From: Salinisphaera sp.
GTDB taxonomy: Bacteria > Pseudomonadota > Gammaproteobacteria > Nevskiales > Salinisphaeraceae
Assembly: GCA_027858915.1 (NCBI GenBank)
Contig: JAQIBT010000124.1
Span: forward strand, 1-64,000
DNA length: 64,000 bases
Reading direction: 5' to 3'
Shown: one piece after another, positions 5,254 to 38,884 of the stretch
Layout: each line of letters opens with the position of its first letter
How positions within the stretch are numbered: the first letter of the stretch is position 1
Notes under the pieces: generated by a model
The model's input: only the letters and a program-made list of their open reading frames with translations
The model's database searches: none
What the model was told of the DNA's origin: nothing
Position numbers and translations under genes: made by a program

Positions 5254-6102
5254 CTACTGAGCCAAGAGAACAGGTACAGTCATTTCGCGCATGATTGTCC
5301 AAGTCACACCACCAAGTGCCAGCTCGCGCAACCGGGAATGGCCATAGGCGCCCATGCAAATCAGATCGACATCAAGATCGGCGGCGCTCGATAGCAAGGT
5401 GTCCGCGACGCTGACAGCCCCGCTGACCGTTGTCATCACTTCGACGTTGACGCCATGGCGCGATAGATATAGCGCAATGTCCGCTCCCGGTTCTTCGCCG
5501 AAGCCTCGGTAGTCGCGGGTGTCTGGATTGATCGCCAAAACAAACACTTGCTTGGCGCTGTGAAGCAAAGGCAACGCTTCGCGCACCGCGCGTGTGGCTT
5601 CACGGCTACCGTTCCAGGCCACCAACACCCGTTTGCCCAAAGTTCCCCCCTCGCCAACACAAGGCACCGCGATAACCGGCCGTCCCGAGGCAATCGCGAC
5701 TTTGGCCGGCAAATCGCGATCGGTGCTGTGCAGATCGCTTGACCGCCCTGTCTGCGTTTGCGTCATGAAAATGACGTCTGCATAGCGTGCCCGAGCGTTG
5801 AGCATCATCAACAGTTCACCCTCGTCGAACTGCCAGTCGGTATGATCAACGCCGCAGCTGCTACAGGCTTTTTCGAAGGCGATCTTGGCCGCCTCCGCCT
5901 CTTTCTTGGCAGCATGCCGATCATTGGACATAACGGCAGTCAAATCGACTCCGTACGCTGCCGGATAATTATAATAAAAAGGCTCGTACACGAACGTACC
6001 GGAAAGATGCGCATCGAACTGCGCGGCCATGGCCGCTGCTGTATTCAGCACTCTGTCGTTGTCGGAATTGTTTGCAGAAACAACCATACTTTTATAGCTC
6101 AT
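5254..6102 (-). CDS. Tandem-domain universal stress protein, paralogue of the gene at 1140
   Basis: This 282-residue protein is the same length as the protein encoded at 1140-1988 and near-colinear with it: MSYKS start, AAQFDAHLSG, then VAWNGSREATRAVREALPLL, and GAYGHSRLRELALGG at the ATP-site end. It has two UspA domains and is presumed cytoplasmic. The start at 6102 is chosen because GAAGAGGA lies just upstream and because it aligns with the paralogue's start; an upstream in-frame start at 6141 would add 13 unsupported residues. An FNR-like box with a -10 hexamer lies 127-140 bp upstream. The second domain is more conserved between the copies than the first. The pair reads toward the copper genes from both sides. 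Confidence 0.92.
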   Translation of the reverse strand: MSYKSMVVSANNSDNDRVLNTAAAMAAQFDAHLSGTFVYEPFYYNYPAAYGVDLTAVMSNDRHAAKKEAEAAKIAFEKACSSCGVDHTDWQFDEGELLMMLNARARYADVIFMTQTQTGRSSDLHSTDRDLPAKVAIASGRPVIAVPCVGEGGTLGKRVLVAWNGSREATRAVREALPLLHSAKQVFVLAINPDTRDYRGFGEEPGADIALYLSRHGVNVEVMTTVSGAVSVADTLLSSAADLDVDLICMGAYGHSRLRELALGGVTWTIMREMTVPVLLAQ

Positions 6103-6200
6103 GACATATCCTCTTCGAAGAAACAACGGCGTTGTGCGCATTGGTCCGTAAGCATCGATAAACGGTTGTCAGTCTTGCGGTGCGAAGCGTCACTTTGCAG

Positions 6201-7047: not shown

Positions 7048-9465
7048 TTAAGACGCGCTGGATTCAGCAGGCGCGGCATCCTGCACGTATGCCTCTGACC
7101 AGCGCCAATCGCGAACTTCGGGCATGTCCTGCCCATATTGGTCGATGTACAAGCGGTGCGCGATCAACTTGTCCTGGAGCAACCACTTGACGTGAGCCGC
7201 CCTGGGATGAGGCTCGACAAGACGATCGATCGCATCGATGACCAGGTGAAAACGGTCGAGCTGATTGAGCACCGTCATATCGAAAGGCGTCGTAATCGTG
7301 CCCTCTTCCCGGTAGCCGTGCACATGAAGATTGGGATGGTTGGCGCGTCGGTAGGTGAGCCGATGGATGAGCCATGGATAACCGTGAAAAGCGAAGATCA
7401 CAGGCTTGTCCCGCGTGAACAGGTCATCGAAATCCTGATCGCTCAATCCGTGTGGATGCGCACTTTTCGGCTGTAGCTTCATCAGGTCAACGACGTTGAC
7501 TACCCGTACCGAGAGTTCCGGCAAATATTCGCGCACAATCGAAACGGCGGCGAGTGTTTCCAGCGTCGGTACGTCACCGCAGCAAGTCATGACGACGTCA
7601 GGCTCACTTTGCTGATCGTTGCTGGCCCATTCCCAGACGCCGATGCCTTTCGTGCAGTGGATGATCGCAGCATCCATAGGCAGCCATTGCGGCGCTGGAT
7701 GCTTGCCCGCTACAACGACATTGACGTAGTGGCGGCTGCGTAGACAATGATCCATCACGGACAGCAGACAGTTGGCATCGGGCGGCAGATACACACGGAC
7801 CACCTCGGCTTTCTTGTTCAGGACATGACCGATGAAGCCGGGATCCTGATGCGAAAAACCGTTGTGATCCTGGCGCCAGACGTGAGAAGCGACCAGATAA
7901 TTCAATGAAGCGATCTTTCGGCGCCACGGCAGATGGGCGCTGACTTTCAACCATTTGGCGTGCTGGTTGAACATCGAATCGATAATATGTATGAACGCCT
8001 CGTAGCAATTGAACAGCCCGTGGCGACCGGTCAGCAGATAGCCTTCGAGCCAGCCTTCACACTGGTGCTCGCTGAGCATTTCCATGACCCGGCCGCTGGG
8101 GGAGAGAAATTCGTCGTTGTCTTCAGTAGCGGCGTTCCATTGGCGCTCGGTGACGTCAAACACCGCTTCGAGACCGTTGGATAATGTCTCGTCCGGGCCG
8201 AATACGCGGAAATTGCGCTGCACGTCGTTCAATTTCACGACGTCGCGCAGGAACGGGCCCAGCACATGCGTATCGCCCACCCCGTGCGTACCCGGCACCG
8301 GCACGTCTTCGGCATAGCCACGAAAATCAGGCATTCGAAGATCGCGCAGCAGCAGGCCACCGTTTGCGTGGGGATTGGCGCCCATGCGGCGCTCACCCTC
8401 GGGCGCCAGCTCGGCAAGTCCGGGTTGCAAGCGTCCCTCCTCGTCGAACAGCTCTTCGGGCCGATAGCTTCGGAGCCAGTCTTCCAGCATCTTCAGATGT
8501 TCAGGATGAACGGCCGGCTCCTTGAGCGGCACCTGATGCGCCCGGAACGTGCCCTCGACCGGCTTGCCGTCAACTACCGCCGGCCCGGTCCAGCCCTTGG
8601 GGGAACGCAGCACAATCACCGGCCAGCGCGGTCGCGCCAACTGGCCGCCAGCGGCACGGACTTTCAGAGCCTCTACCTTGAAGGCCTTGATCTGGCCGAT
8701 GGCGGTATCTAGCGCCGTTGCCATCGCTTCATGCATCAGCGCCGGCTCGTGGCCTTCTACAAAAATCGGCGTCCAGCCATAACCGCGCAGCAGCTGATCC
8801 AGTTCGTCATGGCCAATCCGCGCCAGGAGAGCAGGATTGGCGATCTTGTAGCCGTTGAGATGCAGAATCGGCAGCACAGTGCCGTCAGTCAACGGATTGA
8901 GAAACTTGTTGGAATGCCAGGCGGTCGCCAATGGCCCGGTTTCGGCTTCGCCGTCGCCAATGACACAGGCCGCAATGAGATCCGGATTATCGAATACGGC
9001 GCCGAACGCGTGGCTCAGAGAATAGCCGAGTTCGCCGCCCTCATGGATTGAACCCGGGCACTCGGGCGAAACATGGCTCGGGATGCCCCCCGGAAACGAA
9101 AACTGCAAAAAAAGCTTGCGCAGGCCGGCCTCATCCCGACTGATGTCGGGGTAAAACTCGCTGTACGTGCCTTCGAGATAGGTCTGGCCGACAACCGCCG
9201 GGCCGCCGTGACCGGGGCCGGAGATATAGATCATGTTGAGATCGTATTGCTTGATGATCCGGTTCAGGTGGACATAAACGAAATTCTGACCGGCAGTCGT
9301 GCCCCAGTGGCCGAGCAACATATGTTTTATGTCTTCAAGTTTCAGCGGCCGTCGCAGGAGCGGATTGTCGAAAAGATAGATCTGGCCCACGGCCAGATAG
9401 TTCGATGCCCGCCAGTAGGCATCCATCTTCCGCAGCAGTTCTGGACTCAGGGGCTCGCTTGCCAT
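7048..9465 (-). CDS. xfp: Xylulose-5-phosphate/fructose-6-phosphate phosphoketolase
   Basis: The protein has 805 residues, the usual length for the family. This thiamine-diphosphate enzyme splits xylulose-5-P or fructose-6-P with phosphate into acetyl phosphate plus glyceraldehyde-3-P or erythrose-4-P. Seen here are the N-terminal [20 protein letters not shown], the ThDP motif [14 protein letters not shown] (about residues 170-183), and family blocks such as [11 protein letters not shown] and [14 protein letters not shown]. The ATG is preceded by AGGAGA, 12 bp after the acetate kinase stop, so the two are co-translated and acetyl phosphate passes directly to the next step. It is the last gene of the minus-strand operon that appears to start at the box at 15287. 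Confidence 0.96.
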
Positions 9466-9477
9466 GGTTCAAATCTC

Positions 9478-10674
9478 CTATGCTGGGTACAAGCCGAAAA
9501 CGCGGGCGGTCGAGCGCGCGAGCATGCGTTCTTCGTTGGTGGGAATGACCCGCACCGTGACGCGGGCCAGATCGGGCGAAATGATCGTGCTATCGGCATG
9601 GTCGCGCATGGAATCAATCTCAATGCCAAGGAAGTCCAGTCCCCGGCAGATTCTCTCGCGGATCGCCGCCGAGTTCTCGCCAATACCGCCCGAAAAAACC
9701 ACCGTATCCACCCCGCCAAGCGAAGCAGCGAATGCGCCGATCCATTTTTTTGCCTGATAACAAAACACTGCCAGCGCTTCGGCCGCGCGCGTATCGCATT
9801 GCTCCTGTGCGAGCAGATCCCGCACGTCAGAGCTGAGCTCGGAAATACCCAGCAGGCCCGATTCGTGGTTCGCCATTGCCTCGAAGCGGGCTGTACTCAT
9901 GCCCTCGCTTCGAGCAAGATAGTCGGCCATACCGGGGTCCAGGTCGCCGCAGCGAGTGCTCATCGGCAGCCCCGACGCCGGCGTGAAGCCCATGCTGGTA
10001 TCGATACTCTGGCCGTCGCGAACCGCCGCCATACTGGCGCCATTGCCGAGATGCGCGAGGATCACCCGACCGCTCGTGGCAGCTGAATCGCCGAGGCGCT
10101 CCAGTTCCTCCAGCAAGTAGCCATAAGACAGACCGTGGAAGCCGTAGCGCCGGATACCGTGGTTCTGGTAGCGGCGCGGGATCGGCAGTATGGCTGCGCA
10201 GCGCGGCAGCGCGGCGTGAAACGCGGTATCAAAGCAGGCCGCCTGACCCAAAGTGAGTACGCGTTCGCGAAACGCCTCGATCAGTTCAATTTCATGCGGC
10301 AGATGTTGCGGAACGAAGATCGCGATGCGATAGAGTTCGTCGAGCAGCGCGGGCGTTATCGGCTCCGGCACCGTATGTTGCATTCCGTGTACTATGCGAT
10401 GGCCAACGGCCTGAAGCGATTCGAGTGCATTCTGGTTGTCGAGCCAATCAATCAAAAACGAGGCCGACGACTTATGGTTGGTGACCGGAATGTCGACGTG
10501 ACCGAACGTTTCTCCAGCCGGATCGGCATACGTCAACTGCGTTCCATCTAGGCCGATGCGATCGATCTTGCCGTGCAGACCGGGCTGCATATCTGCATCC
10601 GTGTCGTATAGCGCGAAGCGGATGCTGGACGAGCCGCCGTTGACGGTCAGAATGCGTGCATTGGATGAACTCAT
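9478..10674 (-). CDS. ackA: Acetate kinase
   Basis: This cytosolic enzyme of 398 residues converts acetyl phosphate plus ADP to acetate plus ATP. Signatures are the N-terminal phosphate-binding loop ILTVNGGSSSIRF (usually N-x-GSSS-x-K), HRIVHG, FDTAFH and GFHGLSY, and the C-terminal TGGIGE-like segment FSGGIGENSAAIRERIC. The start at 10674 gives the family N-terminus; an open extension upstream to 10797 overlaps the phosphoglucomutase and is not supported. It lies between phosphoglucomutase (85 bp upstream) and phosphoketolase (12 bp downstream), the standard pairing for substrate-level phosphorylation by a phosphoketolase shunt. Confidence 0.95.
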   Translation of the reverse strand: MSSSNARILTVNGGSSSIRFALYDTDADMQPGLHGKIDRIGLDGTQLTYADPAGETFGHVDIPVTNHKSSASFLIDWLDNQNALESLQAVGHRIVHGMQHTVPEPITPALLDELYRIAIFVPQHLPHEIELIEAFRERVLTLGQAACFDTAFHAALPRCAAILPIPRRYQNHGIRRYGFHGLSYGYLLEELERLGDSAATSGRVILAHLGNGASMAAVRDGQSIDTSMGFTPASGLPMSTRCGDLDPGMADYLARSEGMSTARFEAMANHESGLLGISELSSDVRDLLAQEQCDTRAAEALAVFCYQAKKWIGAFAASLGGVDTVVFSGGIGENSAAIRERICRGLDFLGIEIDSMRDHADSTIISPDLARVTVRVIPTNEERMLARSTARVFGLYPA

Positions 10675-10759
10675 CGCTGTTCGCAAACCGGTGCGTCCAC
10701 GACGGCGCACACGGCTTTCGGGGCGTACCAGGCCAGCCATCCTGAACGCTTGTGACGAA

Positions 10760-12427
10760 TCATGACGAGCCCTTCGAATCGTCGGCCAGGGCCGCATTTA
10801 CGATGATTTGGGCCTCGGTCAAAATACGCTTCAGATGAGCGGCGTCACGAAAACTCTCGGCATATATCTTGTACAGGTCTTCGGTGCCGGAGGGGCGCGC
10901 CGCAAACCAGCCGTGCGCGGTGGTGACCTTGATGCCACCAATCCGGGCGCTATTGCCCGGGGCTCGGTCGATCACGTTTTCGATGGCATCACCGGCGAGT
11001 TCGGTGCCTGTCATCTGGCGCGGCGAGAGATTCGCCAGTCGGTGTTTTTGTTGCGCGTTTGCGGGAGCTTCGATTCGCTCCGCGAACGACCCACCGCCTA
11101 GTTCTTGCACGAGCTCGTCATAGTATTCACTTGGATCGCGGCCGCTGCGCGCGCCGATCTCGGCGGATGCGAGCGCGGCTACGATTCCGTCCTTGTCTGT
11201 GGTCCAGACCCTACCGTCGAACCGGCTGAACGTCGCACCCGCACTTTCTTCGCCGCCGAATGCCAGGCGCGCATCCAACAAGCCGCCTACAAACCACTTG
11301 AAGCCGGCCGGCACTTCGTAAAGTTTACGCCCGAGTCGCTCGACCACACGATCGATCAGGGCGGTACTAACCACGGTCTTGCCCACGGCGGCATCAGCGG
11401 CCCATTGGATCCGATGACGGAATAGATAATCGGCGAGCACGCAGAGATAGTGGTTCGAGGGCATCAGTCCGGCATGGGTTACGATGCCGTGCCGGTCGTG
11501 GTCGGTGTCGCAGGCGAAGGCGACGTCGTAGCGCGTCTTCAAATCGATCAGCCGCTGCATCGCACGGGATGACGACGGATCCATGCGGATGGCGCCGTCC
11601 CAATCGACCGGCATGAAGGCGAAAGTGGGGTCGACCTGGGTATTCACGATGTCAAGATCGAGAGCGTAGGTGTCGGCGATTCGGGCCCAGTAGTGCACTC
11701 CCGCGCCGCCCAGTGGGTCGACGCCCAGACGAAGCCCGGCAGTACGTATGGCCGGCATGTCGATGACGTGGCGCAGATCCTCGACATAGGCCGTGAGATA
11801 GTCGTACCGATGAACCGTGCCCTCGCCACGCGCGGTTCTCAACGGCATGCGTTTTACGCCGTTCAGGCCGCTCTCGAGATATCGGTTCGCTGCATCCTGG
11901 ATACGATCCGTGACGGTCTGCCCCGCCGGCCCGCCGTGGGGCGGGTTGTACTTGAAACCGCCATAGGCAGGTGGGTTATGCGATGGGGTAAGGACAATGC
12001 CATCAGCCAGGCCGCTCGTTCGGCCCCGGTTATAGTCGAGAATCGCCAGCGAAATCGAGGGTGTGGGGGTATATTCGGATTCGCCCGCCAACATCACATC
12101 GACATCGTTGGCGGCGAGTACGACGAGTACACTGTCACGAGCCGGCGCCGACAACGCATGCGTATCGATCCCCAGAAAAAGCGGCCCGTCGATATTCTGC
12201 CGGTCCCGGTAGTCACAGATCGCCTGGCTGATTGCCAGTACGTGCCATTCGTTGAAGCTGCGCTCGACAGCAATCCCGCGGTGGCCGGACGTGCCGAAGA
12301 CAACACGCTGCGCCGCGACCGCAGGATCTGGGCGTAGATCGACGTAGGCATCGAGAAGTTCGGATACGTCGATCAATCGCTCAGGCGGCGTCGGACTGCT
12401 TGTCGAGGGACACCTCATGGTACTCAT
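10760..12427 (-). CDS. pgm: Alpha-D-glucose phosphate-specific phosphoglucomutase
   Basis: The protein has 555 residues and interconverts glucose-1-P and glucose-6-P. The active-site phosphoserine loop is [20 protein letters not shown], the metal loop is DTDHDRHG, the sugar-binding GGEESAG loop is present as [11 protein letters not shown], and the phosphate loop is [14 protein letters not shown]. Start ATG 12427 overlaps the stop of the isomerase frame as ATGA, indicating translational coupling. A second ATG at 12418 is possible. In this operon it would feed glucose-1-P, for example from glucan phosphorolysis, into hexose-6-phosphate for phosphoketolase. Confidence 0.95.
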
Positions 12428-14118
12428 GACGGCAGACCTCGAATCCGCCGATACCGACGGATCAAGGTGTTGGTGGAGCTGTCGCGAGCGAGTTTTGTAT
12501 CCTGTGTCGCGTCGATCTCGCTCGCCATTCGGCTGGCCAGTGTCTTGCCCAACTCCACGCACCACTGATCGAATGAATCGATGTCCCAGATCGCGCCTTG
12601 CACGAATACGCTGTGCTCATAGAGCGCGACCAGCGCGCCGAGGGTGTATGGATCCAGCTTTTCGGCGAGGATCGTACTGCTCGGGCGGTTGCCCTCAAAC
12701 CCGTGCTGGCCGTTCGCTTGTTGGCACGCCCTCTGCGATGAGTTGTTCGGCTGTTTTGCCGAAGGCCAGTGCCTCGCTTTGGGCAAACAGGTTGGCCATG
12801 AGCAGGTCGTGCTGCTCCGCCAGCCGACTCACTGGACGGCAGAAGCCGATAAAATCACAGACAACGAGCCGCGTACCCTGATGGAGGAGCTGGGCGAAGG
12901 AATGCTGGGCGTCGGTGCCTGGCTCGCCCAATAAATGGGACCGGTCGAATAGTCCACGCGTCGGCCATCGCGCGTGACCTGCTTGCCGTTGCTCTCCATA
13001 GTGAGTTGCTGCAGATAGGCAGGGAAGCGTTGGAGATCGTGAGCATAAGGCAGCACCGCGACGCTTTCGGCTTTGAGTAAGTTCGTATTCCAGACCGTGA
13101 GCAGTCCCAGCAATATCGGCAAATTATGTTCCAGCGGCGCGTTGCGAAAATGACAATCCATCGCATGAAAGCCGGCGAGCATGGCGCGGAAATTGTCCGG
13201 TCCGATCGCCAGCATCGTGGACAGACCGATCGCCGAATCCATCGAGTAGCGGCCACCGACCCAGTCCCACAGCCGGAACATATTTCTGGTGTCAATTCCG
13301 AATTTGCGCACGGCCTCGACGTTGCTCGATACCGCCACGAAATGTTTAGCCACCGCGTTGCCGTCTTCTAGCGCGCGCAGGCACCAGGCGCGGGCAGCGC
13401 GGGCGTTGCTCATCGTCTCGAGCGTAGTAAAGCTCTTGGAACAAATGATGAACAACGTTTCGGCGGGATCGAGATCGCGCGTGGCCTCGATAAAATCCGA
13501 ACCGTCCACGTTGGAGACAAACCGAAACGTCAGGTCAGGCCCGCGATAGGCGCGCAGCGCATCATGAGCCATCGTCGGCCCAAGATTCGACCCGCCAATT
13601 CCAATATTGACGATATTGCGGATCGGCCGGCCGGTATGGCCGATCCAACTCCCGTTGGGATAGTCGGTCGTCCAGCCGCCGTTATATATACGAGTGTAGA
13701 AACTCGCCATATGATCGAGCACTGCATGCACTTGAGGCACTACGGCCTTCCCGTACAGCTCGAACGATTCGCCGGCTGGCGCACGCAACGCCACGTGCAG
13801 CGCGGCACGTTGTTCGCTGACGTTGATGCACTCGCCCGCAAACATCGCCTGGATACGATCGGGCACTTTACAATCTGAAGCGAGTTCGATCAGTCGCCGC
13901 AACGTTTCGTCGGTAACGCGCTGCTTGGAATAATCCAGATACAAACCGACTGCCTCGGCACTCAGACGCTCGCCACGCCCCGGGTCTTCGGCAAACAGCT
14001 CGCACAGATGACGTTCGCCGAGCGTATCGGAATGTTGCTGAAGCGCACACCACGCCGCCCGTTCGGTCAGCGAGACCGCCATCGAATCATCCGACGCATA
14101 GGGCTTGAACCGTGTCAT
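12424..14118 (-). pseudogene. pgi: Glucose-6-phosphate isomerase with two compensating frameshifts
   Basis: From ATG 14118 the frame encodes a typical isomerase ([11 protein letters not shown], then SKSFTTLET, and YSTGPIYW), interconverting glucose-6-P and fructose-6-P. At 12927-12929 a G-run on the coding strand is one base short of what the family sequence needs (YWGEPGT). The original frame then ends at 12829, about 430 codons in. The homologous sequence continues in the next frame ([19 protein letters not shown], then [17 protein letters not shown]) and near 12728-12732 returns to the first frame ([19 protein letters not shown], then [18 protein letters not shown]), ending at 12424. One base lost and one gained about 200 nt apart restore the C-terminus. 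This is either a recent double mutation or base-calling errors. The gene overlaps the transaldolase by about 30 bp and pgm by 4. Confidence 0.85.
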
Positions 14119-15225
14119 GCCGGCCCCCGCTTTTTTCGGCGATACGCTGCAATAGCGCTTGCCAGGACTCGACGAACGATTGAGCACCTTCACGCTGCAA
14201 TGTGAGCGCCAGAGCATTCACGTCGACGCCGGCCAGTCGAAATCGTGCCAGCATGGCGTCGCTATCGCCGCCATCGCTCGCCAACGCACCGTGCAGTTGT
14301 CCGTGATCCGCGAACGCATGCAGGGTCTTTTCCGGCATAGTATTGAGGGTATCCGGTGCGGCCAGCGCTTCGACATACAAGGTATCCGAGGCATCTGGAT
14401 CCTTTGTTCCCGTGCTCGCGAATAACAGCCGTTGCGGGCTCGCGCCCGCAGCGGCGAGTGTCTGCCAGCGTGGTGATGCCAATAGTTCTCGATAGTCCCG
14501 GTAGGCCCGTTTGGCGACCGCGATTCCGAGCCTGTTTCGAAGCTCGCCCGGCACCGTGTCGGCCACGGCCTTGTCCCAGCGACTGACAAAAATTGACGCG
14601 ATCGACGCGATGCGCGGGTCGCGGCCCGCCTGAATGCGTCTTTCGATACCGCGTATGTAGGCTTCGGCTGCCGCAAAGTAATGTGCCGACGAGAACAGCA
14701 ACGTGACGTTGATCGGCACACCGGCAAAGATCGACTCCTCGATCGCCGGAATACCTTCGGGTGTGCCCGGTATCTTGATGAAAAGATTGGGTCGCTGCGC
14801 CCGCGCGTGCAGTTCGATCGCACTTTGTATTGTGCCCTGGGCATCACCGGCCAGCAGGGGCGAGACTTCCAGCGATACCCAGCCATCCCCACCATCGGTG
14901 GCATCGTGTATCGGACGCAGCAGATCGGCAGCTCGCGTCAAATCCTCCAGCGCGAGTTCGAAGAACACTGCTTCGCTAGATTGCCCGCTGTCGTTTTTTG
15001 TTGAATTGCCTCGTCATAGCTGTCGGTATGGCCAATAGCCTGATCGAAGATCGTTGGGTTCGATGTCAGCCCCGTCACAGCGTACAACTCGATATATCGG
15101 GCGAGCGTGCCCTGGGTCACCAGCGAGCGCGAAATGCTGTCGAGCCAGAGGCTTTGGCCAAGCCTCCGGAGCTGCCCAGTCGCGCGACAAGACGCTGACG
15201 TTAAGATTGCCTTCGAATTATTCAT
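14087..15225 (-). pseudogene. tal: Transaldolase interrupted by a -1 frameshift at an A6 run
   Basis: The first frame (from 15225) encodes a transaldolase N-terminus (GQSLWLDSISRSLV, TGLTSNPTIFDQAIGH) to about codon 76. The second, ending at 14087, encodes the rest: FFELALEDL, EVSPLLAGDAQGTIQ, the Schiff-base lysine in NLFIKIPGT, and the ASIFVSRWDKAV and STGTKDP blocks. The switch falls at CAA CAA AAA ACG (T-run at 14994-14999 on the plus strand). Slipping back one base, or one extra A in the transcript, gives QKNDSGQSSEAVFFEL and a complete protein of about 380 residues. Transaldolase exchanges a dihydroxyacetone unit between fructose-6-P or sedoheptulose-7-P and aldose phosphates. It is first in the operon and directly behind the FNR-like box. 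Mutation, base-calling error and recoding cannot be separated here. Confidence 0.85.
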
Positions 15226-15258
15226 CGGGCGCCTCAGCGCAATTCAAGCGACGGCAGC

Positions 15259-15300
15259 ATTAAGCCGCAAACGCGCGGCCAGCGTGTTGATTTCGATCAA
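15259..15300 (-). promoter_or_regulatory. FNR/ANR class II promoter of the tal-pgi-pgm-ackA-xfp operon
   Basis: The box at 15287-15300 is a perfect consensus dyad (TTGAT-CGAA-ATCAA on the minus strand). Exactly 22 nt downstream is CTTAAT (15264-15259), a reasonable -10. The tal ATG at 15225 follows by 33 bp. The box also lies just past the end of the glucan synthase gene at 15338. Confidence 0.75.
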
Positions 15301-15337
15301 TTCCCAGCGCGTGACCTGCGAACGTCAGGCCAGCGAA

Positions 15338-18300
15338 TCAGGCGTGCGTGGTTGGCGGGCGGCAGACGCTGATTACCACCCGATGGCTTGTGCCGTCGTC
15401 GATCAGCGGCAAGCGGGTGTCCGCAATCAACTCGTCATCCACCATCACGCAGGGCGCCTTGCTGAAAGCGCTCGGGGAGATCTCGACCTCGATCTCGTAA
15501 CGGCTATCGCCGTGACGCAGACTCACCGAGAAGCCGTGCCAGGCAGCGGGCAGGCAGGGATCGATTTCTAGGACAGCGCCGCGGCGTTTGAGGCCCAGTA
15601 ACGCTTCCAGCGCGCCGCGGAATAACCAGCCAGCGGATCCCGTGTACCAGGTCCAGCCGCCGCGCCCGATATGCGGATCCACACCATAGATATCGCCGGC
15701 CAGCACGTACGGTTCAACCCGATAGCGCGCCGCGCTGTCGGCATCGGCTGCTCGATGAATCGGGTTGAGCAGCGAAAACAAATGCCAGGCGCGATCGCCA
15801 TCGCCCAGGGCCGCTGCCGCCCATACGATCCACGCCGCCCCGTGGGTATATTGTCCACCGTTCTCGCGGATACCTGGGGGATAACCCTTGATATAGCCGG
15901 GCTCCATTTCGCTGCGGTCGAACGGCGGGTCCAACAACCGGATCAGGCGGGCCTCGCCCTCTACCAACCGGGCATCGACCGATGCCATAGCCTGGACTGC
16001 GCGGGCACGGGACATTTCGCTGAATTCGTCTCTGGCGAGTACCGCCCAAGTTTGGGCCATCAGATCAATCTGGCACTCATCGTTATCGGCCGAGCCCAGC
16101 GGCGTGCCGTCGTCGAAATAGGCACGCCGGTACCAGGCACCATCCCAGGCCGTCGCCTCGACCTGGCGTTCGACGGTCGTCGCCAGTTCGGCGTAACGCC
16201 GTGCACGCGATGTATCGCCACGCCGTGTACACAACGGAGCAAAATCACGGCATACGCGGATGACAAACCAGGCCAGCCAGACGCTTTCCCCCTGCCCGCC
16301 GACGCCGATACGGTTGTAGCCGTCGTTCCAGTCACCATCGCCGATCAGCGGCAGCCCGTGCACGCCCATCTGCGCGGCCCGCTCTATCGCATGCCAGCAA
16401 TGCTCGTAGAGCGTTCCTTCGAGCGATCCCTCGGCATACTCGGTATAACGTTCTGCTTCGTCGTCAGCGAGTGGCTCGCCGTCTAGATAGAGCACGTTCT
16501 GGTCCAGGATCGTATCGTCGCCAGTGGCCGCGACGTACTGCGCTGTCGCGTACGGGAGCCACAACAGATCGTCCGAGCAGCGCGTACGAACGCCTCGCAA
16601 CGGCTGCTCATGCCACCAGTGCAATACGTCGCCTTCGGGAAACTGACGCGAGGCGGACTTGAGAATATAGGCGCGTGTCCATTCCGGCCGGGTCCACAGC
16701 AGCGCCAGCACGTCCTGCAGCTGGTCGCGAAAACCAAATGCGCCGCTCGATTGATAATAGCCGCTGCGCCCCCAGTAGCGACACGACAGCAGTTGATACG
16801 GCAACCAGCGGTTGACCATCAGGTCGGTCGCCCGATCCGGGGTATGAATCTGCAGCCGGGCCAGGTGGTCGTCCCAGAACTCCGCCAGACTCGACTCGGC
16901 GCGCGCTGCCGCCTCGGGGTTGCTGAACTGCCTGGCCAATGCCAGTGCGGTTTCGCGGTCCCGGCCCTGGCCGAGCACGAAATAGAACTCGCAGCGGGCG
17001 TTTGGCGGCAGATTGACGTGGATTTGATAGGCCGCACAACTGTCGCGGCCCGACTCGACCCGACCGGACAGGCCGATCCGAAACATCGCCGCGGGCGCAT
17101 CGACACCACCCGAACTACCCAGAAATTCGCTGCGATCGCTGGTCACTCCATGGGCGCGTTGGCTCGCGGTGAGAAACGCCACGCCCGGCTGACTGTCGCG
17201 CGTGAACGCGTTGCGAGCCAGCATCACGCCCGAATCACTCTCGTATTCCGTGACGATATGCGCTGCGGTTTGCGCGCGCGAGGTTCCCAACACCCATTCG
17301 GCGTAATACGTCGCCGTGATCCGCCGGGTCCACGGCCAGTGGTTGGTCAGACTAAGCCGCACCAGTTTGACCGGCTGTTCTCGCTCGACGCTCACGCGCA
17401 GCATCTGTTCCAGACCATGGCAATGATGTCGATAAAGCGTGTAACCGGCTCCGTGGCGAATCTGATAGGCGCCATCGGTCGGCCGTGGGCCAGGGGTCGG
17501 CGACCAGACTTGCGCGGTTTCCTCGTCGCGCAGATACAGCACCTCGCTGGGCGGATCGCGCACCGGATCGTTGGTCCAGGGCGTCAATCGGTTCTCGCCG
17601 CTGTTACCGGCCCAGGTGCACCCCAACCCGGCATCGGTGACCAGACAGCCAAACCCTGGGTTGGCGATCACGTTCGACCACGGCGCAGGTGGCCGCTGAC
17701 CGGCCTCGAGGTGAATTACGTATTCGCGGCCGTTGTCGGCGAACCCGCCGAACCCGTTGTCGAATTCAAGATCGTTCGGACGCATCAACGCCTGCGTGGC
17801 CGGCCGGGTTCCGATCCCAGAACCCACAGCGACAAACGGTGGCAATGCCGCCGCATGCGTTCGCGCCGGATTGAGCTGATGGGCGATCGTGCCAGCCGAC
17901 GCGTCCAGGATCACCTGCGCGGCGGACCAAAGCTGCACGCGATCGTGTTCCGAAAGCTCAGGGCCGGAAAGCACGCGCACATCACCGACGATCACACGCG
18001 GCGTATCGCTCTGGACTTCGGCGATCAACTGCTGCAATCGGTCGCGCACCGGCTGCACATAGCCCCCGGGACTCTCGTCAGTCAACACCAGATCCACTGG
18101 CTGGCCGCGCACATTCCAGAATGCATGGGCCTGCAGCAGTTGCCGCGCGAACGCGGCGTCGCCGACGCTGTGTATCCGAACCAGCAGAATCGGGTGATCG
18201 CCGGAAATTCCGCGGCCCCAGAGGCTGTCCTGAATTCGGGCACTGCGGGCCAACAGATTGCTGGGGGCTCGCAAGGCCGGAATCGGAACCATCAATGCAG

Positions 18301-21300
18301 ACAACAGCGTCATCATCCACTCGACCGCCCATGGCTCGATCCCCAGGTCGCCGAGCAGCTGCTCGGACTGCATGCGCGCCTGCTCGAATACCCACTGCGC
18401 GCGCGACGGCGCGTGGTAGGCGCGAACGGCATCGAGCACCTCCTGACGCACCCGACCGACGCCGGTGATGTAAGTGATCGTCGTGGCAGCATAGGGGGCC
18501 AGTTCCAGTTCGACGCCCGTGGCCAGGACCGGATCGAGCACCGTGCCGCTGGTATTGCCGAAGCCCGACAGCCCGGATGTAGATGCAGCCAGGGCTTGCG
18601 GTGCGCTCGGCGACCCGCCGCGGCCAAGAAAGTGCTCGCGATCGGTTTCCCAGCGCACGCTATGGGACGTCTCTGGGGAGACCCGCAACGTGTGCGCCAG
18701 ATAGACCGGCTTTTCGTCCGCCCCTCTGGGACGACGCCGGTACAGCAGAGTCTGACTCTCCGCCAGATAGCGGGTTTCCACGAACAGCTTCACGAATGCC
18801 GGATGGCGCAAATCGTCGGCCGGCGGTGCCAGGACGACTTCGGCATACGTGCCGATCAGCAGTTGCCGGCGTCGCCCGCTTTCATTCTTGATGACCAATT
18901 GACGTACTTCCACGTCGTGCTGCGATGACAGACCGATACGCAGATGACAGAACAACGCGAGCGCACGGCGCTGATATTCCACCTGGTGAGGCGCGAATAG
19001 GGTTCGCGTGGTGTCAGAATCACCGGTGCTGGGCTCGAAGCCGACCGAGGTCACGGCGTTGTCCTGCAAATCCTTGACGTAGCACCAGTGACCCTGGGTA
19101 TCGCGAGTCCCGTCCGCCGACCAGCGCGTGAGCGCAATGCCCTGCCACTGGCTGCCGCCGCTGCCATCCGCACCTTGCAGCGACGACAAAACGCCGTTCG
19201 ACAGCAGATTGTATTCGCGCAGCATATGCCCGCGCGCCGGCTGCCACGACACCAGCGGCATAGCGGCTCTGAAGGTATGGGCCGGTTGGGCTCCAGCCCA
19301 AGGCCGCATGGCCGGCGGCGAGACCGGTGGTTGCTCATGCAGCAATGTGGCCAATCGCGCGACGCGCGTATCGCTGTTGAAACGCTGGGGCATGATCTCG
19401 CTGTTGACGAAGTTGTTGAGCGCCAGCAATGCCATGCCTTGGTGATGACTCATGTAGGAACGCACGATGTGCGCCCGGCGCGGCCCTTCCAGATCGCTGC
19501 GCCCATAGTCGATCGCTTCATAGAAGCCGTATTGGCCCATCGCGCCGAGCTGTTCCAGCATGCGCAGATTCTCGACTACCGCGTCGGGCGCAAACGGCAG
19601 CGCCATGATCGACGAATAGGGAGAAACGACCAGCTGATCGCCAAGATCGCGACGGAATCCCAGTCCGGGAACGCCGAACGCGCGATACTGGTAATTGGCC
19701 TGTGAATCGAGCTGGTAGTAACCCGATTCCGAAATGCCCCAGGGCAGCCTTTTCGATGCGACAAAATCTGTCTGCACCTTGATCGCGCTGCGGCAGGCCC
19801 GGCCCATGAGACTGCCCGGTGGCGTGGTCATGAGCAATACCGGCATCAGGTATTCGAACAGCGTTGCCCCCCAGGACATGAGCACGACCTGTCCGTGAAC
19901 CCGGCTGAAGGGACGAGCCAAATGCAGCCAGTGCTGACTTGGCACATCGCCCTTGGCGATGGCGACGAATCCGGTCAACCGGGCCTCGGAGGCGAGCAGA
20001 TCATAGTAATTGCTGTCGACTCTGGCGTCGTCAACGTTATAGCCGATCCGGAACAGATGGCGGGCCCGATCGTAGAGAAACCCAAAATCCATAGCCGCGA
20101 CCCAGGCATCGGCTTGCGTAATTAACTGTTGCAGTTCGCTCAGCTGCGCGTTCGCTGCCTGTTCGCCAGCCTGCAACGCATCGCGCAGCTGCTTATGCCA
20201 GGCCCTGGCCTGTGTGCGTGTCTCGTCGGCGCAGCCGAGCGCATCCAGCGCGGCGTCAACCTGTTCGAGCGATGCCCGTGCGGCCGCAGCTGATTCTGCA
20301 CAGTTTTCGAGCGTGACCGGTTGCGAAAGAGTGTGACAGATCTCGTCCCAGTGCTTGCCCGCATGCGGGTCTCGCGTGCCTTCATCGCGATAAAGATCGG
20401 GCGGGTCTTGTACCAGTCGACGCCACGGCAATAACCGATTCCCGGACTCGCGTGCATGGGTTGCCTGGCGGCGCAGTTCTTCGAGCCACTGCTGCAGCTG
20501 CGTGAGCCGCTCCACGCTGAACGCGGGCTCGGCCGCGTCGACTACTGCCAGCAACCGGGTTTGCAGCGCAGGCAGGTATTCATCGGCGAGGCGATCCAGC
20601 AAGGTCCAACCGTCGTCGGCTGCCCGTTCCGCGATTGCGCTGCGACAATCGCGAATCGCCACTGCCCATCGTTCTCCCGCCGCCGACAGTTGACGGGCCG
20701 CCGCGGGCTTTGACAACGATTCGAGCACGATCAGCGTATCGCAGACCCCGACCAGCAACTGGCTGGCAACGATGGGCTGATGCCGGAGTTGCTCCAGACC
20801 GCGCGAGAGCGTCATCAGCGATGCCGCGAGGTTGCCGCTATCCACGGTCGACACATAGCGCGGCGGCATGGAACGCAGATCGCTCGTTTCATACCAGTTC
20901 AGCCAATGGCCCCGATAGCGCTCCAATAGCTTTATCTGCTCGAAACTGCTGTTCAGGCGTGCCAGCAACGACAACAGGTCGATATAGCCCAGATCGAACG
21001 CGCTCAATGTCGCCAGCAAACCCATGCCAATATTGGTAGGCGATGTACGCCGAGCCAGCACAACGCGTGGCTCCTCCTGATAGTTGTCGGGCGGCAGCCA
21101 GTGGTCGTCCGGCCCCATGAAACGCTCGAAGAAAAACCACGTTTTGCGGGCGACATCGCGCAACGCCTGCTGTTCGGATGGAGACAGCCTAGGCGTGTTT
21201 TCAGACAACGGCCGACTGATGCCGTACACCAGCGCCGGGGCCAGCAGCCATGCCAGCAGCAGCGGCGCCGCCGGCCACAGCGCATATGGAAAAAACACTA

Positions 21301-23944
21301 GCAGCAGTGCACCGATCGCGAGTGCGCACGCCGGCGATATCCACATCTCGCGCGCAATCGCCGCGGGTACAAAGCCGTCGCCCAGGGCACGCTGCACATG
21401 ATGAGCCGATCGCCATTCGAGCAGATTCTGCCGCGAGGCCATCAGGCGGTACAGCGTGCGCCCGATGGCGTCGAGCACGACCCGGCTCTCGTAAGGCAAT
21501 AGACTCACTGTCAGCAGCCAGCGCCGCAGACGCTGGTGCAACCAGACTGGGGTCTCGCGCGCGTGGCGCGGCGCTTGTCGCCAATCAGCGGTGCTTCGCC
21601 AAGCCAGCGCCAGAAGATCGGCCCAGATCGGCTCGGCGGCCACGGCAAGAATCAGCAGTGTCCATACCCAGGCCGGGCCCGGCAATGCGTCACTCCAGCC
21701 GATGCAGAACAAAGCAACAAGACACGGTGCCATGAGGCTGCGACGCAGATTGTCGATGATCCGCCAGCGCTGGATACCGGACAGCGGGTTGCGCTCTTGC
21801 GAACCGTCAGCCAGGCGCATCCGGCGCGTTAACCATGGCAATAGCTGCCAGTCGCCGCGTATCCAGCGATGCGAGCGGTGAAAAAACGTCAACAGATTGG
21901 GCGGAAAATTCTCGTAGAAGCAGGTATCCGTAACCAATGCGGTACGGCCGAAACTGCCTTCGAGCAGGTCATGACTGAGCAGCGCGTTCTCCGGGATACG
22001 CTGGCCGAGCACGTAATCGACCACGCGCGGATCATAAAGCCCCTTGCCGACGAAGATGCCTTCTCCGAACAGATCCTGGTAGGCATCAGATACCGCATGC
22101 GCATACAGATCCACGGTGGTATCACCGGCGAAAATGCGGGTAAACCGATTATGAACCGTCGTTACCGGATCGGTGTCGAGCCGTGGCTGGAGAAACGCAT
22201 AGCCGCGGCTGACCCGGCCACTGGCCGTATCCACCACGGCGTGGTTGAGCGGATGCGCCATGGTCCCTGCGAGCACGCGTGCCGCGCCGGGCGGCATGCC
22301 GGTATCCGCATCGAGAGTAATGACATAGCGGATACCGGCCAGCGCTCGGTCGTCGCCGGCGATCGTCTCGAAGCGATGCCGGTCATCACCCAGGATCAGG
22401 CGATTGAATGCCAGCAATTTGCCACGCTTGCGCTCCCAGCCCATCCAGCAGTTCTGGGCTGCATTCCACTCGCGTCGACGATGCAGGGCAACAAACGGTC
22501 CGTGGGCATCGCCGGTTCGCGCACGGCGTTGATTGAGTGCGTTCAGCCGCGTGCGGATGGCATCGACAATCGCCTCATCGTCACTGCGCTCGCGCGTCGA
22601 TGCATCGGCGAAATCGCCCAGCAACACATAAACGAGGTTGCGATCATCGTTATTGAGATAGTTGAGCTCGATACGATCCAGCAGCGGATCGATATCCTCG
22701 ACACCGCCAAATATTGCCGGCACGACAACCGCACTCTTGAACGCTTCTGGAATGCCCTCGCTGAAATCCAACTTCGACAGTCGTCGCGGCGCCAGACTAT
22801 GCGTGATCAAACCCTGCAGCAGCGCGTTGGCGAGTCCTGCCAGCGGTGCCGCGGCCAGCGTCATCGTCAGGGCAGTTAGCCAGCCTGCAGTGTTGTTCAG
22901 CACCAAAAAGAAACCCAACCCCAGCCATAACGGCAGCGCAAATCCCGCCAGGCCCGCCAGATAAATCGCCGTGGCGGCGCGGGACGAGGGTTCGAAACCC
23001 TGGGCGCACCGGCTGCAATCAAGCGTTGCCGCGAGCTGGGTTCGCCCGTCGTCGATCAGGTAATAGCCAACGTGCCGGCGATAATCCTCGCCCGTCGCAG
23101 CCAGCGCGCACTGTTGCGTGGCGCGTGCGACCGCCAGTTCCGACTTGCGCGCGCGTCTCGCGAACGCTTCGACGGCCTTGCGATAGCGGTCGCGAGACGC
23201 AAAATTCATCGACGCATACGCGCCGGCTGGATCCTCCCGCAGAATCTGCTCGACCGGCATCAGCGATTCCGCGAAGTCGCCCCAGTCCCTGCTTTCCAGA
23301 GCGCGAAGACCGCGAATCACCTCGGCGACACCCGAAATCGGCGAATTGTCTTCGTCCTGCATAGCAGCAGACGGGACCAGCGAAAGCGCGGTTTCCGCCG
23401 ATCGGATCAACGCTTCCAGCAGCACCCAGCGAAGTACTGCGGGTAACGCCCAGATTTCGCCGATGGTCAACACACAAACGTTCTGATACCGACTCACCTG
23501 ATCTACGATCAGATTAATGTCGATCGGCTGGTCTCCGGAAAGGGCTACCAGTTCGCGCGCCAACAGCCGCACGCGCAGGTCGGGCCTGCCCGTTGGGCTC
23601 GCCGACTGCGGCAATTGACGGAGAAACATCCTGGGCAGGCTTTCGCGTACCTGTGCAAGCGCCTTCTGGACAACGTGCCAGTTGTCGAGCAGCCATTCCT
23701 CGGTGCGGCTGCCCTTCGTACCGGCAGCGACGCGTTCGGCGATACGCGCGTAGACGGCCTCATAGCGGGTTTCCAGCGCTGCCAGTACGGCCTTGAGATT
23801 GGGCGGCGCATCTGTTGCGGACGCGTTCTGGTGGCTGTCGGCAAGCGCTGCGAGCTCATCGCGCTCCGCAGTGTGTGCATTAGCGGAAGGCTTGCCTAGA
23901 TCGTGATCAAGCCGAGTCCGAGGCGCTGGCAAAGGCTCAACCAT
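15338..23944 (-). CDS. ndvB: Cyclic beta-1,2-glucan synthase (NdvB/Cgs type, GT84 plus GH94)
   Basis: This 2868-residue multi-domain inner-membrane protein has the usual length for Cgs/NdvB. The N-terminal third has two clusters of hydrophobic segments (about residues 325-400 and 735-940) around a glycosyltransferase region containing DADTGMPPGAARVL near residue 543. The C-terminal half carries GH94 phosphorylase-like domains, with GDGDWNDGYNRIGVGGQGES near 2538 and GYPPGIRENGGQYTHGAAW near 2685. In known Cgs proteins the GT domain makes the beta-1,2 chain from UDP-glucose, and the GH94 domain sets chain length by releasing glucose-1-P. It starts 41 bp after a stress-protein stop in the same direction, so it probably shares the FNR-type promoter at 25023. 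Cyclic glucans are periplasmic osmoprotectants; direct link to the fermentation operon is inference. Confidence 0.93.
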   Translation of the reverse strand: MVEPLPAPRTRLDHDLGKPSANAHTAERDELAALADSHQNASATDAPPNLKAVLAALETRYEAVYARIAERVAAGTKGSRTEEWLLDNWHVVQKALAQVRESLPRMFLRQLPQSASPTGRPDLRVRLLARELVALSGDQPIDINLIVDQVSRYQNVCVLTIGEIWALPAVLRWVLLEALIRSAETALSLVPSAAMQDEDNSPISGVAEVIRGLRALESRDWGDFAESLMPVEQILREDPAGAYASMNFASRDRYRKAVEAFARRARKSELAVARATQQCALAATGEDYRRHVGYYLIDDGRTQLAATLDCSRCAQGFEPSSRAATAIYLAGLAGFALPLWLGLGFFLVLNNTAGWLTALTMTLAAAPLAGLANALLQGLITHSLAPRRLSKLDFSEGIPEAFKSAVVVPAIFGGVEDIDPLLDRIELNYLNNDDRNLVYVLLGDFADASTRERSDDEAIVDAIRTRLNALNQRRARTGDAHGPFVALHRRREWNAAQNCWMGWERKRGKLLAFNRLILGDDRHRFETIAGDDRALAGIRYVITLDADTGMPPGAARVLAGTMAHPLNHAVVDTASGRVSRGYAFLQPRLDTDPVTTVHNRFTRIFAGDTTVDLYAHAVSDAYQDLFGEGIFVGKGLYDPRVVDYVLGQRIPENALLSHDLLEGSFGRTALVTDTCFYENFPPNLLTFFHRSHRWIRGDWQLLPWLTRRMRLADGSQERNPLSGIQRWRIIDNLRRSLMAPCLVALFCIGWSDALPGPAWVWTLLILAVAAEPIWADLLALAWRSTADWRQAPRHARETPVWLHQRLRRWLLTVSLLPYESRVVLDAIGRTLYRLMASRQNLLEWRSAHHVQRALGDGFVPAAIAREMWISPACALAIGALLLVFFPYALWPAAPLLLAWLLAPALVYGISRPLSENTPRLSPSEQQALRDVARKTWFFFERFMGPDDHWLPPDNYQEEPRVVLARRTSPTNIGMGLLATLSAFDLGYIDLLSLLARLNSSFEQIKLLERYRGHWLNWYETSDLRSMPPRYVSTVDSGNLAASLMTLSRGLEQLRHQPIVASQLLVGVCDTLIVLESLSKPAAARQLSAAGERWAVAIRDCRSAIAERAADDGWTLLDRLADEYLPALQTRLLAVVDAAEPAFSVERLTQLQQWLEELRRQATHARESGNRLLPWRRLVQDPPDLYRDEGTRDPHAGKHWDEICHTLSQPVTLENCAESAAAARASLEQVDAALDALGCADETRTQARAWHKQLRDALQAGEQAANAQLSELQQLITQADAWVAAMDFGFLYDRARHLFRIGYNVDDARVDSNYYDLLASEARLTGFVAIAKGDVPSQHWLHLARPFSRVHGQVVLMSWGATLFEYLMPVLLMTTPPGSLMGRACRSAIKVQTDFVASKRLPWGISESGYYQLDSQANYQYRAFGVPGLGFRRDLGDQLVVSPYSSIMALPFAPDAVVENLRMLEQLGAMGQYGFYEAIDYGRSDLEGPRRAHIVRSYMSHHQGMALLALNNFVNSEIMPQRFNSDTRVARLATLLHEQPPVSPPAMRPWAGAQPAHTFRAAMPLVSWQPARGHMLREYNLLSNGVLSSLQGADGSGGSQWQGIALTRWSADGTRDTQGHWCYVKDLQDNAVTSVGFEPSTGDSDTTRTLFAPHQVEYQRRALALFCHLRIGLSSQHDVEVRQLVIKNESGRRRQLLIGTYAEVVLAPPADDLRHPAFVKLFVETRYLAESQTLLYRRRPRGADEKPVYLAHTLRVSPETSHSVRWETDREHFLGRGGSPSAPQALAASTSGLSGFGNTSGTVLDPVLATGVELELAPYAATTITYITGVGRVRQEVLDAVRAYHAPSRAQWVFEQARMQSEQLLGDLGIEPWAVEWMMTLLSALMVPIPALRAPSNLLARSARIQDSLWGRGISGDHPILLVRIHSVGDAAFARQLLQAHAFWNVRGQPVDLVLTDESPGGYVQPVRDRLQQLIAEVQSDTPRVIVGDVRVLSGPELSEHDRVQLWSAAQVILDASAGTIAHQLNPARTHAAALPPFVAVGSGIGTRPATQALMRPNDLEFDNGFGGFADNGREYVIHLEAGQRPPAPWSNVIANPGFGCLVTDAGLGCTWAGNSGENRLTPWTNDPVRDPPSEVLYLRDEETAQVWSPTPGPRPTDGAYQIRHGAGYTLYRHHCHGLEQMLRVSVEREQPVKLVRLSLTNHWPWTRRITATYYAEWVLGTSRAQTAAHIVTEYESDSGVMLARNAFTRDSQPGVAFLTASQRAHGVTSDRSEFLGSSGGVDAPAAMFRIGLSGRVESGRDSCAAYQIHVNLPPNARCEFYFVLGQGRDRETALALARQFSNPEAAARAESSLAEFWDDHLARLQIHTPDRATDLMVNRWLPYQLLSCRYWGRSGYYQSSGAFGFRDQLQDVLALLWTRPEWTRAYILKSASRQFPEGDVLHWWHEQPLRGVRTRCSDDLLWLPYATAQYVAATGDDTILDQNVLYLDGEPLADDEAERYTEYAEGSLEGTLYEHCWHAIERAAQMGVHGLPLIGDGDWNDGYNRIGVGGQGESVWLAWFVIRVCRDFAPLCTRRGDTSRARRYAELATTVERQVEATAWDGAWYRRAYFDDGTPLGSADNDECQIDLMAQTWAVLARDEFSEMSRARAVQAMASVDARLVEGEARLIRLLDPPFDRSEMEPGYIKGYPPGIRENGGQYTHGAAWIVWAAAALGDGDRAWHLFSLLNPIHRAADADSAARYRVEPYVLAGDIYGVDPHIGRGGWTWYTGSAGWLFRGALEALLGLKRRGAVLEIDPCLPAAWHGFSVSLRHGDSRYEIEVEISPSAFSKAPCVMVDDELIADTRLPLIDDGTSHRVVISVCRPPTTHA

Positions 23945-23985: not shown

Positions 23986-24957
23986 CTAGACATCGCAGAA
24001 GAGGCCGGACCGGCAGCGCGCAGTTTCTGTAATCTGGCCGGCTGTCGGATGTTCGTCTGGCAAATCCTGGAATAACAGCACCGACTGCATGCTGTGGCCT
24101 ACCACGGCGTCCGCGACGCTGCCCAGCGCCCAGCTCGATTCACCGGCAGCGCCATGTGCCGTGAGTGCGATCATATCCACGGCTTCACTATTGGCCATGC
24201 GCACAATTTCCCGGGCCGCACTGGGGGCGCGCACGACGCGCGTGGTTATATTCAAGCCGTGCTGCAGGTGACCACGCACTTCCTTGAGATAGTCTTGTCC
24301 AACCCGCAACTCTTCGGCGAGCATGTTTTTTCGTAAGGAGGCGATGTCTCCGGTCATCAACGCGGGCGACAGCTCGTCCAACATAACGACCACGTGCAAA
24401 AGGATCAATTCGGCATCGGTGTCGCGCATGAGAGCGGCGATCTGGTGCACCGCCCACTCGGCACGACAGGAACCGTCGAGCGGTAACAGCACACGCCGGT
24501 ACGCGGACCTGCCGGGAAGCCCGGTTTCCTGCATCGCATGGCTGATAAAAACCGATGTATGTGTTCGGCGCATCGCCTTTTGCACGGTGCCGCCGAGATG
24601 AAATCGGCTGAGGCCACCGCGGCCGCAGGCGCTCAGAACAATCAGATCCGTGCCATCCCGTTTTGCAAACTCGAGTATCTGTTGCACCGGGTCGCCGTCT
24701 TCGACATGTGCCGTCACGCGTGTGCCCTCGCCGGACAGACGCTCGACGAGTCCGTTGAGATAACTTAGTGCCTTCGCATGCTGCATGCGCCAGTCCAACG
24801 GATCCACTTGACAGCTCCCTTCTTCGGATCGTGTCGGCACGACTTGCAGCAAATGGAGTTCGCCACCGGCCGTCTTGACCAGCCGTTGCGCTTGGCTCAA
24901 GGCTCTTTCGGCCATATGTGAGCCGTCTAACGGCACTAGAACATGATTGAAAAGCAT
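23986..24957 (-). CDS. Tandem-domain universal stress protein, third copy
   Basis: The protein has 323 residues and two UspA domains (1-145 and about 160-305), each starting with the VLVPLDGS or VLLPLDGS strand. The first keeps an ATP-type loop, SACGRGGLSRFHLGGTV; the second has AHGAAGESSWALGSVADAV. It is only distantly similar to the other two stress proteins in the island. ATG 24957 is chosen because AGGAGGG lies 5 nt upstream; the longer open frame from 25002 lacks a site. A perfect FNR-type box is centred 72 bp upstream. The cyclic glucan synthase follows after 41 bp, so the two probably form an operon. Confidence 0.92.
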   Translation of the reverse strand: MLFNHVLVPLDGSHMAERALSQAQRLVKTAGGELHLLQVVPTRSEEGSCQVDPLDWRMQHAKALSYLNGLVERLSGEGTRVTAHVEDGDPVQQILEFAKRDGTDLIVLSACGRGGLSRFHLGGTVQKAMRRTHTSVFISHAMQETGLPGRSAYRRVLLPLDGSCRAEWAVHQIAALMRDTDAELILLHVVVMLDELSPALMTGDIASLRKNMLAEELRVGQDYLKEVRGHLQHGLNITTRVVRAPSAAREIVRMANSEAVDMIALTAHGAAGESSWALGSVADAVVGHSMQSVLLFQDLPDEHPTAGQITETARCRSGLFCDV

Positions 24958-25022
24958 CGTGCCCTCCTGGCCCGCTCTACTTAAAACAGTTCCAGTAAGC
25001 ACCGAGCGATGGGCCCTATGTG

Positions 25023-25036
25023 TTGATCCTGATCAA
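25023..25036 (-). promoter_or_regulatory. Perfect FNR/ANR box upstream of the third universal stress protein gene
   Basis: TTGATCAGGATCAA (minus strand) matches both consensus half-sites. Hexamers GCTTAC or CTTACT fall 22-23 nt downstream. It is positioned to activate the stress protein and, by read-through, the glucan synthase. Confidence 0.7.
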
Positions 25037-38881: not shown

Positions 38882-38884
38882 TAC

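Follow-up and report, generated by a model that had tools for sequence, protein, structure and literature searches.

Aerobic bacteria need some way to supply ATP once oxygen vanishes, and how they do so is a live question. It is raised by a stretch of Salinisphaera DNA in which a cyclic glucan synthase gene adjoins genes of a phosphoketolase route to acetate. Does the glucan feed the route, or do the two only answer to the same oxygen signal? We see about an even chance that this stretch is part of an FNR/ANR-type oxygen-loss survival island in which beta-1,2-glucan, as a store or sink, feeds ATP formation through phosphoketolase. Gene identities, the catalytic residues of the synthase, predicted regulator boxes and recurrence of the neighborhood form the sequence basis of this proposal, and from the whole we infer low-oxygen expression, the direction of flux, a cytoplasmic glucan pool and a flow of carbon from glucan to acetate.

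Genes of the window

The window analyzed here is 64,000 nucleotides long (bases 1-64000 of the 69136 of contig C84) and comes from a draft genome of 4.33 Mb in 169 contigs that is 99.6% complete. Reading downward on the minus strand, usp-ndvB comes first, followed by tal-pgi-pgm-ackA-xfp, and two more universal stress protein (Usp) genes and a P-type ATPase gene are found at 1.1-6.1 kb (Table 1). The GH94 part previously read in the glucan synthase is there, in an open gene.

Table 1. Features of the usp-ndvB and tal-pgi-pgm-ackA-xfp blocks and of the adjoining stress genes in the window.
Feature	Position	Strand	Evidence and remarks
FNR/ANR-type box, perfect	25023..25036	-	Upstream of usp-ndvB; centre ~72 nt from likely usp ATG (24957)
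Universal stress protein (Usp), two matched stretches	23986..25002	-	PF00582, 7.2e-47; likely start 24957
Cyclic glucan synthase (ndvB), 2868 aa, with GH94 part	15338..23944	-	Open; family matches and solved relatives
FNR/ANR-type box, perfect	15287..15300	-	Centre 68 nt upstream of tal ATG
Transaldolase (tal), two reading frames	14087..15225	-	Frame-wise family matches; split near 14970-15000
Glucose-6-phosphate isomerase (pgi)	12424..14118	-	Family matches; frame changes near 12935 and 12720, stop between
Phosphoglucomutase (pgm)	10760..12427	-	Open, likely start read; TIGR01132, 793.3 bits (cut-off 778.05)
Acetate kinase (ackA)	9478..10797	-	Open; TIGR00016, 356.5 bits (cut-off 293.4); family match from residue 46 of longest ORF
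Phosphoketolase (xfp)	7048..9465	-	Open; above curated NCBIfam cut-off
Universal stress protein, same island	5254..6141	-	Family match and box scan; weak box (2 mismatches) at 6229-6242
Universal stress protein	1140..1988	+	Box scan; one-mismatch box 1013-1026, TAAAAT (5/6) 22 nt downstream
Heavy-metal P-type ATPase	2010..4388	+	Comparison with C31; C31 copy 81% identical

Some enzymes that might be expected nearby are elsewhere. With the enzyme of contig C31 as query, no transketolase was found in the window, and there is one on C31. An aldolase is not part of the operon, no glucose-6-phosphate dehydrogenase (G6PD) was found in it, and neither a GH144-like gene nor a stand-alone GH94 gene was seen within the window.

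Just above the usp gene, at 25365-25976, lies an AAA/SMC-like ATP-binding N-terminal fragment, perhaps the remnant of a larger gene, and at 26700-27050 a transposase-like remnant, read by eye, separates the island from a DeoR/ABC-transporter region. A plasmid origin was rejected after a megablast of bases 1-25000, in which no single place in any of 128 records spanned 80% of the query; the 20 of 128 rows that were read matched one gene each or, in H1, xfp-ackA, at 70-75%, and the other 108 include 3 in the 90-95% band.

Predicted oxygen control

We scanned for the consensus TTGATN4ATCAA and found perfect boxes at promoter distance before both blocks. The sequence-only reading had placed an FNR-like box before the phosphoketolase operon, and that box is perfect; the one before usp-ndvB is an addition. 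Allowing at most one mismatch, the window has 7 boxes against 1.21 expected and a maximum of 5 in 100 shuffles. The 7 are confined to 0.5-25.4 kb, and two of them (5798 and 23897) fall within genes. Genome-wide, the perfect box occurs 19 times and the backwards control pattern never, with two of the 19 in the window and two in the island on C31 described below.

The promoters themselves are of uneven quality. That of tal has CTTAAT (4/6) 22 nt downstream of the box, which fits a class II promoter, and the Usp gene at 1140 has a good -10 hexamer at class II distance from its one-mismatch box, while the -10 match of usp-ndvB is weak (at best 3/6, at 23-nt spacing). A Crp/FNR-family protein encoded in the C31 island has C-x2-C-x5-C near its N-terminus, which we take to be support for FNR-type control. 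Since both blocks stand behind FNR-type boxes, we predict that usp-ndvB and tal-pgi-pgm-ackA-xfp are co-regulated.

The tal and pgi genes are interrupted as assembled

The operon had been described as a complete five-gene route from glucose-1-phosphate to acetate. Phosphoketolase, acetate kinase and phosphoglucomutase are indeed open and above their cut-offs, but a complete operon has to be rejected for the window as assembled, where tal and pgi are frame-broken: the PGI family matches pgi in three pieces and two frames, and transaldolase matches in two pieces. Among the island genes, frame changes occur only in these two (2.8 kb) and the remaining 19.1 kb are open. By eye, each of the three lesions coincides with or adjoins a short homopolymer run.

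The breaks may be pseudogenes or assembly errors. The 99.6% completeness speaks against many errors, and the base runs speak for them, as does a DctM-like TRAP transporter gene at 38003-39029, in which the family covers positions 17-131 of 413 and the remainder, read by eye in another frame, makes the gene look frame-broken. Measured against their C31 counterparts, the broken genes (tal 68%, pgi 55-62% identity) have diverged about as far as the open ones (pgm 68%, ackA 57%, xfp 72%), which would make any decay a recent event.

The window copy could thus be a decaying duplicate of a horizontally spread island, with tal and pgi as pseudogenes and C31 doing the work. Confinement of the frame changes to tal and pgi fits this, as do the additional copies on C31, the transposase-like remnant near 26.7-27.1 kb (by eye) and the presence of xfp in only 2 of 13 other genomes of the genus. 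The lesions at base runs and the broken-looking TRAP gene at 38-39 kb fit assembly error too, however, and open, well-conserved frames persist in xfp, ackA, pgm and ndvB. We regard decay as possible but somewhat short of an even bet.

Even intact, the operon would not be self-sufficient. To take hexose phosphate wholly to acetate, a cell also needs transketolase, ribose-5-phosphate isomerase, ribulose-5-phosphate epimerase and a fate for triose phosphate, so the five enzymes alone are not enough. The genome has further pgi copies on C31 and C160 and transaldolase-family genes on C31 and C167, and with tal and pgi interrupted as assembled it would have to rely on these copies together with the transketolase of C31.

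A second island on contig C31

Contig C31 (132 kb) of the same genome (G000) carries a second stress/energy island at about 8.5-68.5 kb (L113-L115, L121). Its energy and regulator genes are those for a calcium-type ATPase, phosphoketolase, three Crp/FNR-family proteins, a P-type ATPase and transketolase, and its sugar and glucan genes encode a stand-alone GH94 protein (1292 aa), G6PD, Tal, Pgi, Pgm and a GH144-like protein. There are also Usp genes with boxes, a pyridine-nucleotide oxidoreductase, an amino-acid kinase, ackA, a Band-7 protein, a pgm fragment, arginine deiminase, two Orn/Lys/Arg decarboxylases and a second glucan synthase (2965 aa). G6PD-tal-pgi-pgm, xfp, ackA and transketolase are all unbroken. 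An fnr-like gene occupies C31:27687-28505. The GC content of the island, 63%, exceeds the 60% found over bases 70-132 kb on this contig.

The GH144-like gene directly follows pgm, and its product is the only PF10091 match in the genome apart from the two synthases. Its closest solved relative is XCC2207 (8xul, E 1.6e-84), which is described as XcSGL, a GH144 protein with beta-1,2-glucanase activity (PMC12102758; this and the other PMC papers are cited from excerpts). The C31 protein is therefore a candidate beta-1,2-glucanase, on the strength of its family match and its relation to XcSGL. By eye, the likely starts of this protein and of its homologue in locus L010 have no signal peptide. For the stand-alone GH94 protein, the best solved relative is the synthase itself (8rf9).

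The glucan synthase as a source of glucose-1-phosphate

The best solved relatives of the window synthase are 8rf9 and 8rf0, with matches along most of its length. Tyr614, Glu1320, Glu1406 and Asp2541, counted along alignments to chain 8rf0, align with residues named in the excerpted text of PMC11842490. According to the same excerpt, phosphorolysis by the GH94 part of the cyclic glucan synthase (CGS) serves to adjust chain length and finished rings are not cleaved, so on its own the synthase would be a poor supplier of glucose-1-phosphate, and the stand-alone GH94 protein and the GH144-like protein are likelier suppliers.

No ChvA/NdvA exporter was found in the genome at the family cut-off (best 260 bits vs 585), which speaks for a glucan that feeds the route, although the control genomes also fell below this cut-off and so gave no positive control. 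Speaking against that reading, the genome has many further ABC proteins, one of which could export the glucan in place of ChvA.

Recurrence near phosphoketolase in other genomes

Glucan-synthesis or -breakdown genes occur near xfp in 7 of 80 named phosphoketolase loci, which are the best 80 of at least 589 and have flanks of up to 10 kb, many shorter. Three contain a synthase or GH94 gene (L009, L062, L063) and four others a GH144-like gene (L010, L021, L032, L076). With a threshold of 100 bits per match, 36 of the loci have AckA, 6 TAL, 5 PGM and 4 PGI. The 3 loci in 80 compare with 0.055 expected if shared ancestry is ignored and 1.1 copies per positive genome and 3.3 Mb genomes are assumed, at a rate from the class sample below, whereas the 80 loci span several phyla. 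Linkage is found in 4 of 16 loci whose xfp is at least 77% identical to that of the window and in 3 of 64 below this (P 0.027; P 0.035 at a 73% cut), with two cuts tried and shared ancestry ignored.

Two of these loci are close parallels. In L009, 13 bp separate the end of a synthase ORF, truncated at the contig edge, from the ackA ORF, and xfp comes next. L010 has a row of G6PD, HAD hydrolase, tal, pgi, pgm, ackA, xfp, class I aldolase (FBA), transketolase and GH144-like genes, with its pgm match split between two frames.

In a class sample of 369 genomes, 91 have xfp, 43 a synthase/GH94 gene and 28 both, this genome included; among the 368 others, 27 have both (odds ratio 7.5, with shared ancestry ignored). 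The two genes are within 15 kb in 4 of the 27 (G125, G315, G189, G300) against 0.31 expected, or 3 against 0.31 when counted by genus (P about 0.004), and unlinked in the other 23. Two of the four, G189 and G300, belong to one genus, and what is linked there is a gene for a GH94 protein that, at about 1830-1850 aa, falls short of a full synthase. That gene is 10 kb from xfp, which follows pgm (L154-L157). In a phylum sample of 398 genomes, xfp is found in 52, synthase/GH94 in 54 and both in 19, again with this genome included; linkage is seen in 2 of the 18 others (G125, G694), and the 16 unlinked genomes include all 12 of family f223. In both samples the figures take no account of shared ancestry, at most two candidate places were scored per genome and pairs on different contigs counted as unlinked, and two-place scoring misses copies, for example the stand-alone GH94 gene of C31, which is absent from the class sample.

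The synthase is about 6-10 kb from xfp in G125, G315 and G694, on the opposite strand in G125, and the pgm and transketolase matches of G315 are fragments. G212 has a synthase fragment, itself outside the class-sample rows, before G6PD-tal-ackA-xfp. In G724, an oxidoreductase, a GH144-like gene, a GH94 protein (about 1325 aa) and a synthase occur together (L177, G724:C22:250001-270000), possibly a full cluster for glucan synthesis and breakdown, 97 kb from xfp.

The boxes did not recur in the same way. The sequence-only reading had suggested looking for the same gene set and promoter boxes in other genomes; glucan genes do recur near xfp, but no perfect FNR box lies between genes in the distant clusters examined (for L009 and L010 the scan covered perfect boxes), and the one perfect box of G315 is inside its synthase gene. 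Within the genus, 2 of the 13 other genomes have xfp (G005, G007) and one has the synthase (G005). G005, the only other genome of the genus with both, keeps the Usp-ndvB pair and has xfp on a different contig. Its perfect box nearest usp-ndvB is ~420 nt before usp; a divergent ATPase gene is closer and may be the one it serves.

What links glucan and fermentation

In the reading we favor, the usp-ndvB block would make cyclic beta-1,2-glucan, to be stored or used as a sink for carbohydrate. GH94, either as the synthase domain or as the stand-alone C31 protein, would release glucose-1-phosphate from it by phosphorolysis for phosphoglucomutase, and the enzymes of tal-pgi-pgm-ackA-xfp would then convert hexose phosphate to acetate and ATP by way of phosphoketolase and acetate kinase, without respiration. 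Counting against it are the breaks in the window tal and pgi, the mostly unlinked genomes, the lack of intergenic boxes in distant clusters, the chain-length role of the CGS GH94 part and the reliance on C31.

The main alternative is shared regulation only, in which glucan synthase and phosphoketolase act independently within a low-oxygen stress island and no carbon passes between them. The glucan would give envelope or osmotic protection, phosphoketolase would give ATP, and Usp, the metal and calcium-type ATPases, arginine deiminase and the decarboxylases would be further members. The C31 island does mix many stress functions, G005 keeps usp-ndvB while its xfp is on another contig, and three reports of oxygen-linked phosphoketolase are without a glucan synthase in their excerpted text (PMC3050613, PMC6515984, PMC8575079). 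Stand-alone GH94 and GH144-like proteins are not needed for protection, however, yet their genes join sugar-phosphate genes on C31, an arrangement that L010, L021, L032 and L076 repeat with their GH144-like genes. We give shared regulation alone roughly one chance in three. A pentose-phosphate shunt, with G6PD and tal as marks of an oxidative/pentose route, xylulose-5-phosphate as the main substrate of phosphoketolase and the glucan genes as bystanders, is improbable: the fuller clusters contain G6PD, but the window operon is without it, and pgm and the GH94/GH144-like genes would go unexplained.

A glucan store or sink feeding phosphoketolase is thus the reading we keep, in modified form. The glucan-fermentation link first proposed from the window gains from the C31 island and from recurrence elsewhere, mostly outside the window, and is weakened by the 23 of 27 class genomes in which the genes are unlinked. 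The proposed absence of a redox step does not hold as a general design, because the clusters of C31, L010, G125, G315 and G212 contain G6PD. Overall, the first reading is partly supported: it saw a real association and overstated the completeness of the window copy.

A stronger version is doubtful at present: that beta-1,2-glucan is an internal anaerobic fuel, made by the synthase, broken down in the cytoplasm by GH94 and GH144-like enzymes and fermented through phosphoketolase to acetate and ATP, with one oxygen sensor over both halves. If true, it would parallel glycogen fermentation, though the polymer involved has until now been examined chiefly for its envelope, osmotic or symbiotic roles. 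A polymer known from envelope and symbiosis would then also serve energy supply, and its use as a fermentable reserve could be recognized by GH144-like and GH94 genes close to phosphoketolase. The gene set points to a few enzymes that are open to direct assay.

Comparison with known systems

The bifid shunt, or non-oxidative glycolysis, combines phosphoketolase, transaldolase, transketolase and acetate kinase, and its acetyl-phosphate yields acetate and ATP. The window operon has enzymes and the acetyl-phosphate step in common with it; in contrast, it is without transketolase and aldolase, adds pgm, and adjoins a glucan synthase and an FNR box.

Oxygen-linked phosphoketolase, cyclic glucan synthases and enzymes of beta-1,2-glucan degradation are all already reported, as far as the excerpts consulted go. 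In Rhodopseudomonas, phosphoketolase is a putative FixK target, and the effects of fixK loss differ between conditions (PMC3050613); it is raised in microoxia in Bradyrhizobium (PMC6515984) and is listed in a Pseudomonas regulon table (PMC8575079). Oxygen-linked control is thus reported for the FixK- and Anr-linked phosphoketolases of R. palustris (Rpal_1869) and P. aeruginosa (PA3613), whereas the excerpts of PMC3050613 and PMC8575079 mention no glucan synthase. The lxa (low-oxygen-activated) locus of Burkholderia cenocepacia is similar by description in being oxygen-linked and having Usp genes, and is set apart, also by description, in that the main text of PMC6127331 has no match for phosphoketolase, acetate kinase or glucan. 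Among titles and abstract starts of the open-licence PMC literature, we found none that joins glucan and phosphoketolase, although up to three papers contain both words; nor did the searches turn up their combination in one oxygen-linked neighborhood.

The solved cyclic glucan synthase (8rf0, 8rf9) has the same domain order and the same named catalytic residues as the window synthase, which differs in its link to fermentation genes and in having no ChvA/NdvA exporter above the cut-off in its genome. The degradation enzymes SOGP (GH94) and SGL (GH144) have counterparts in the stand-alone GH94 and GH144-like proteins of the C31 island, whose activities are predicted from sequence; unlike SOGP and SGL, these are encoded together with sugar-phosphate and phosphoketolase genes.
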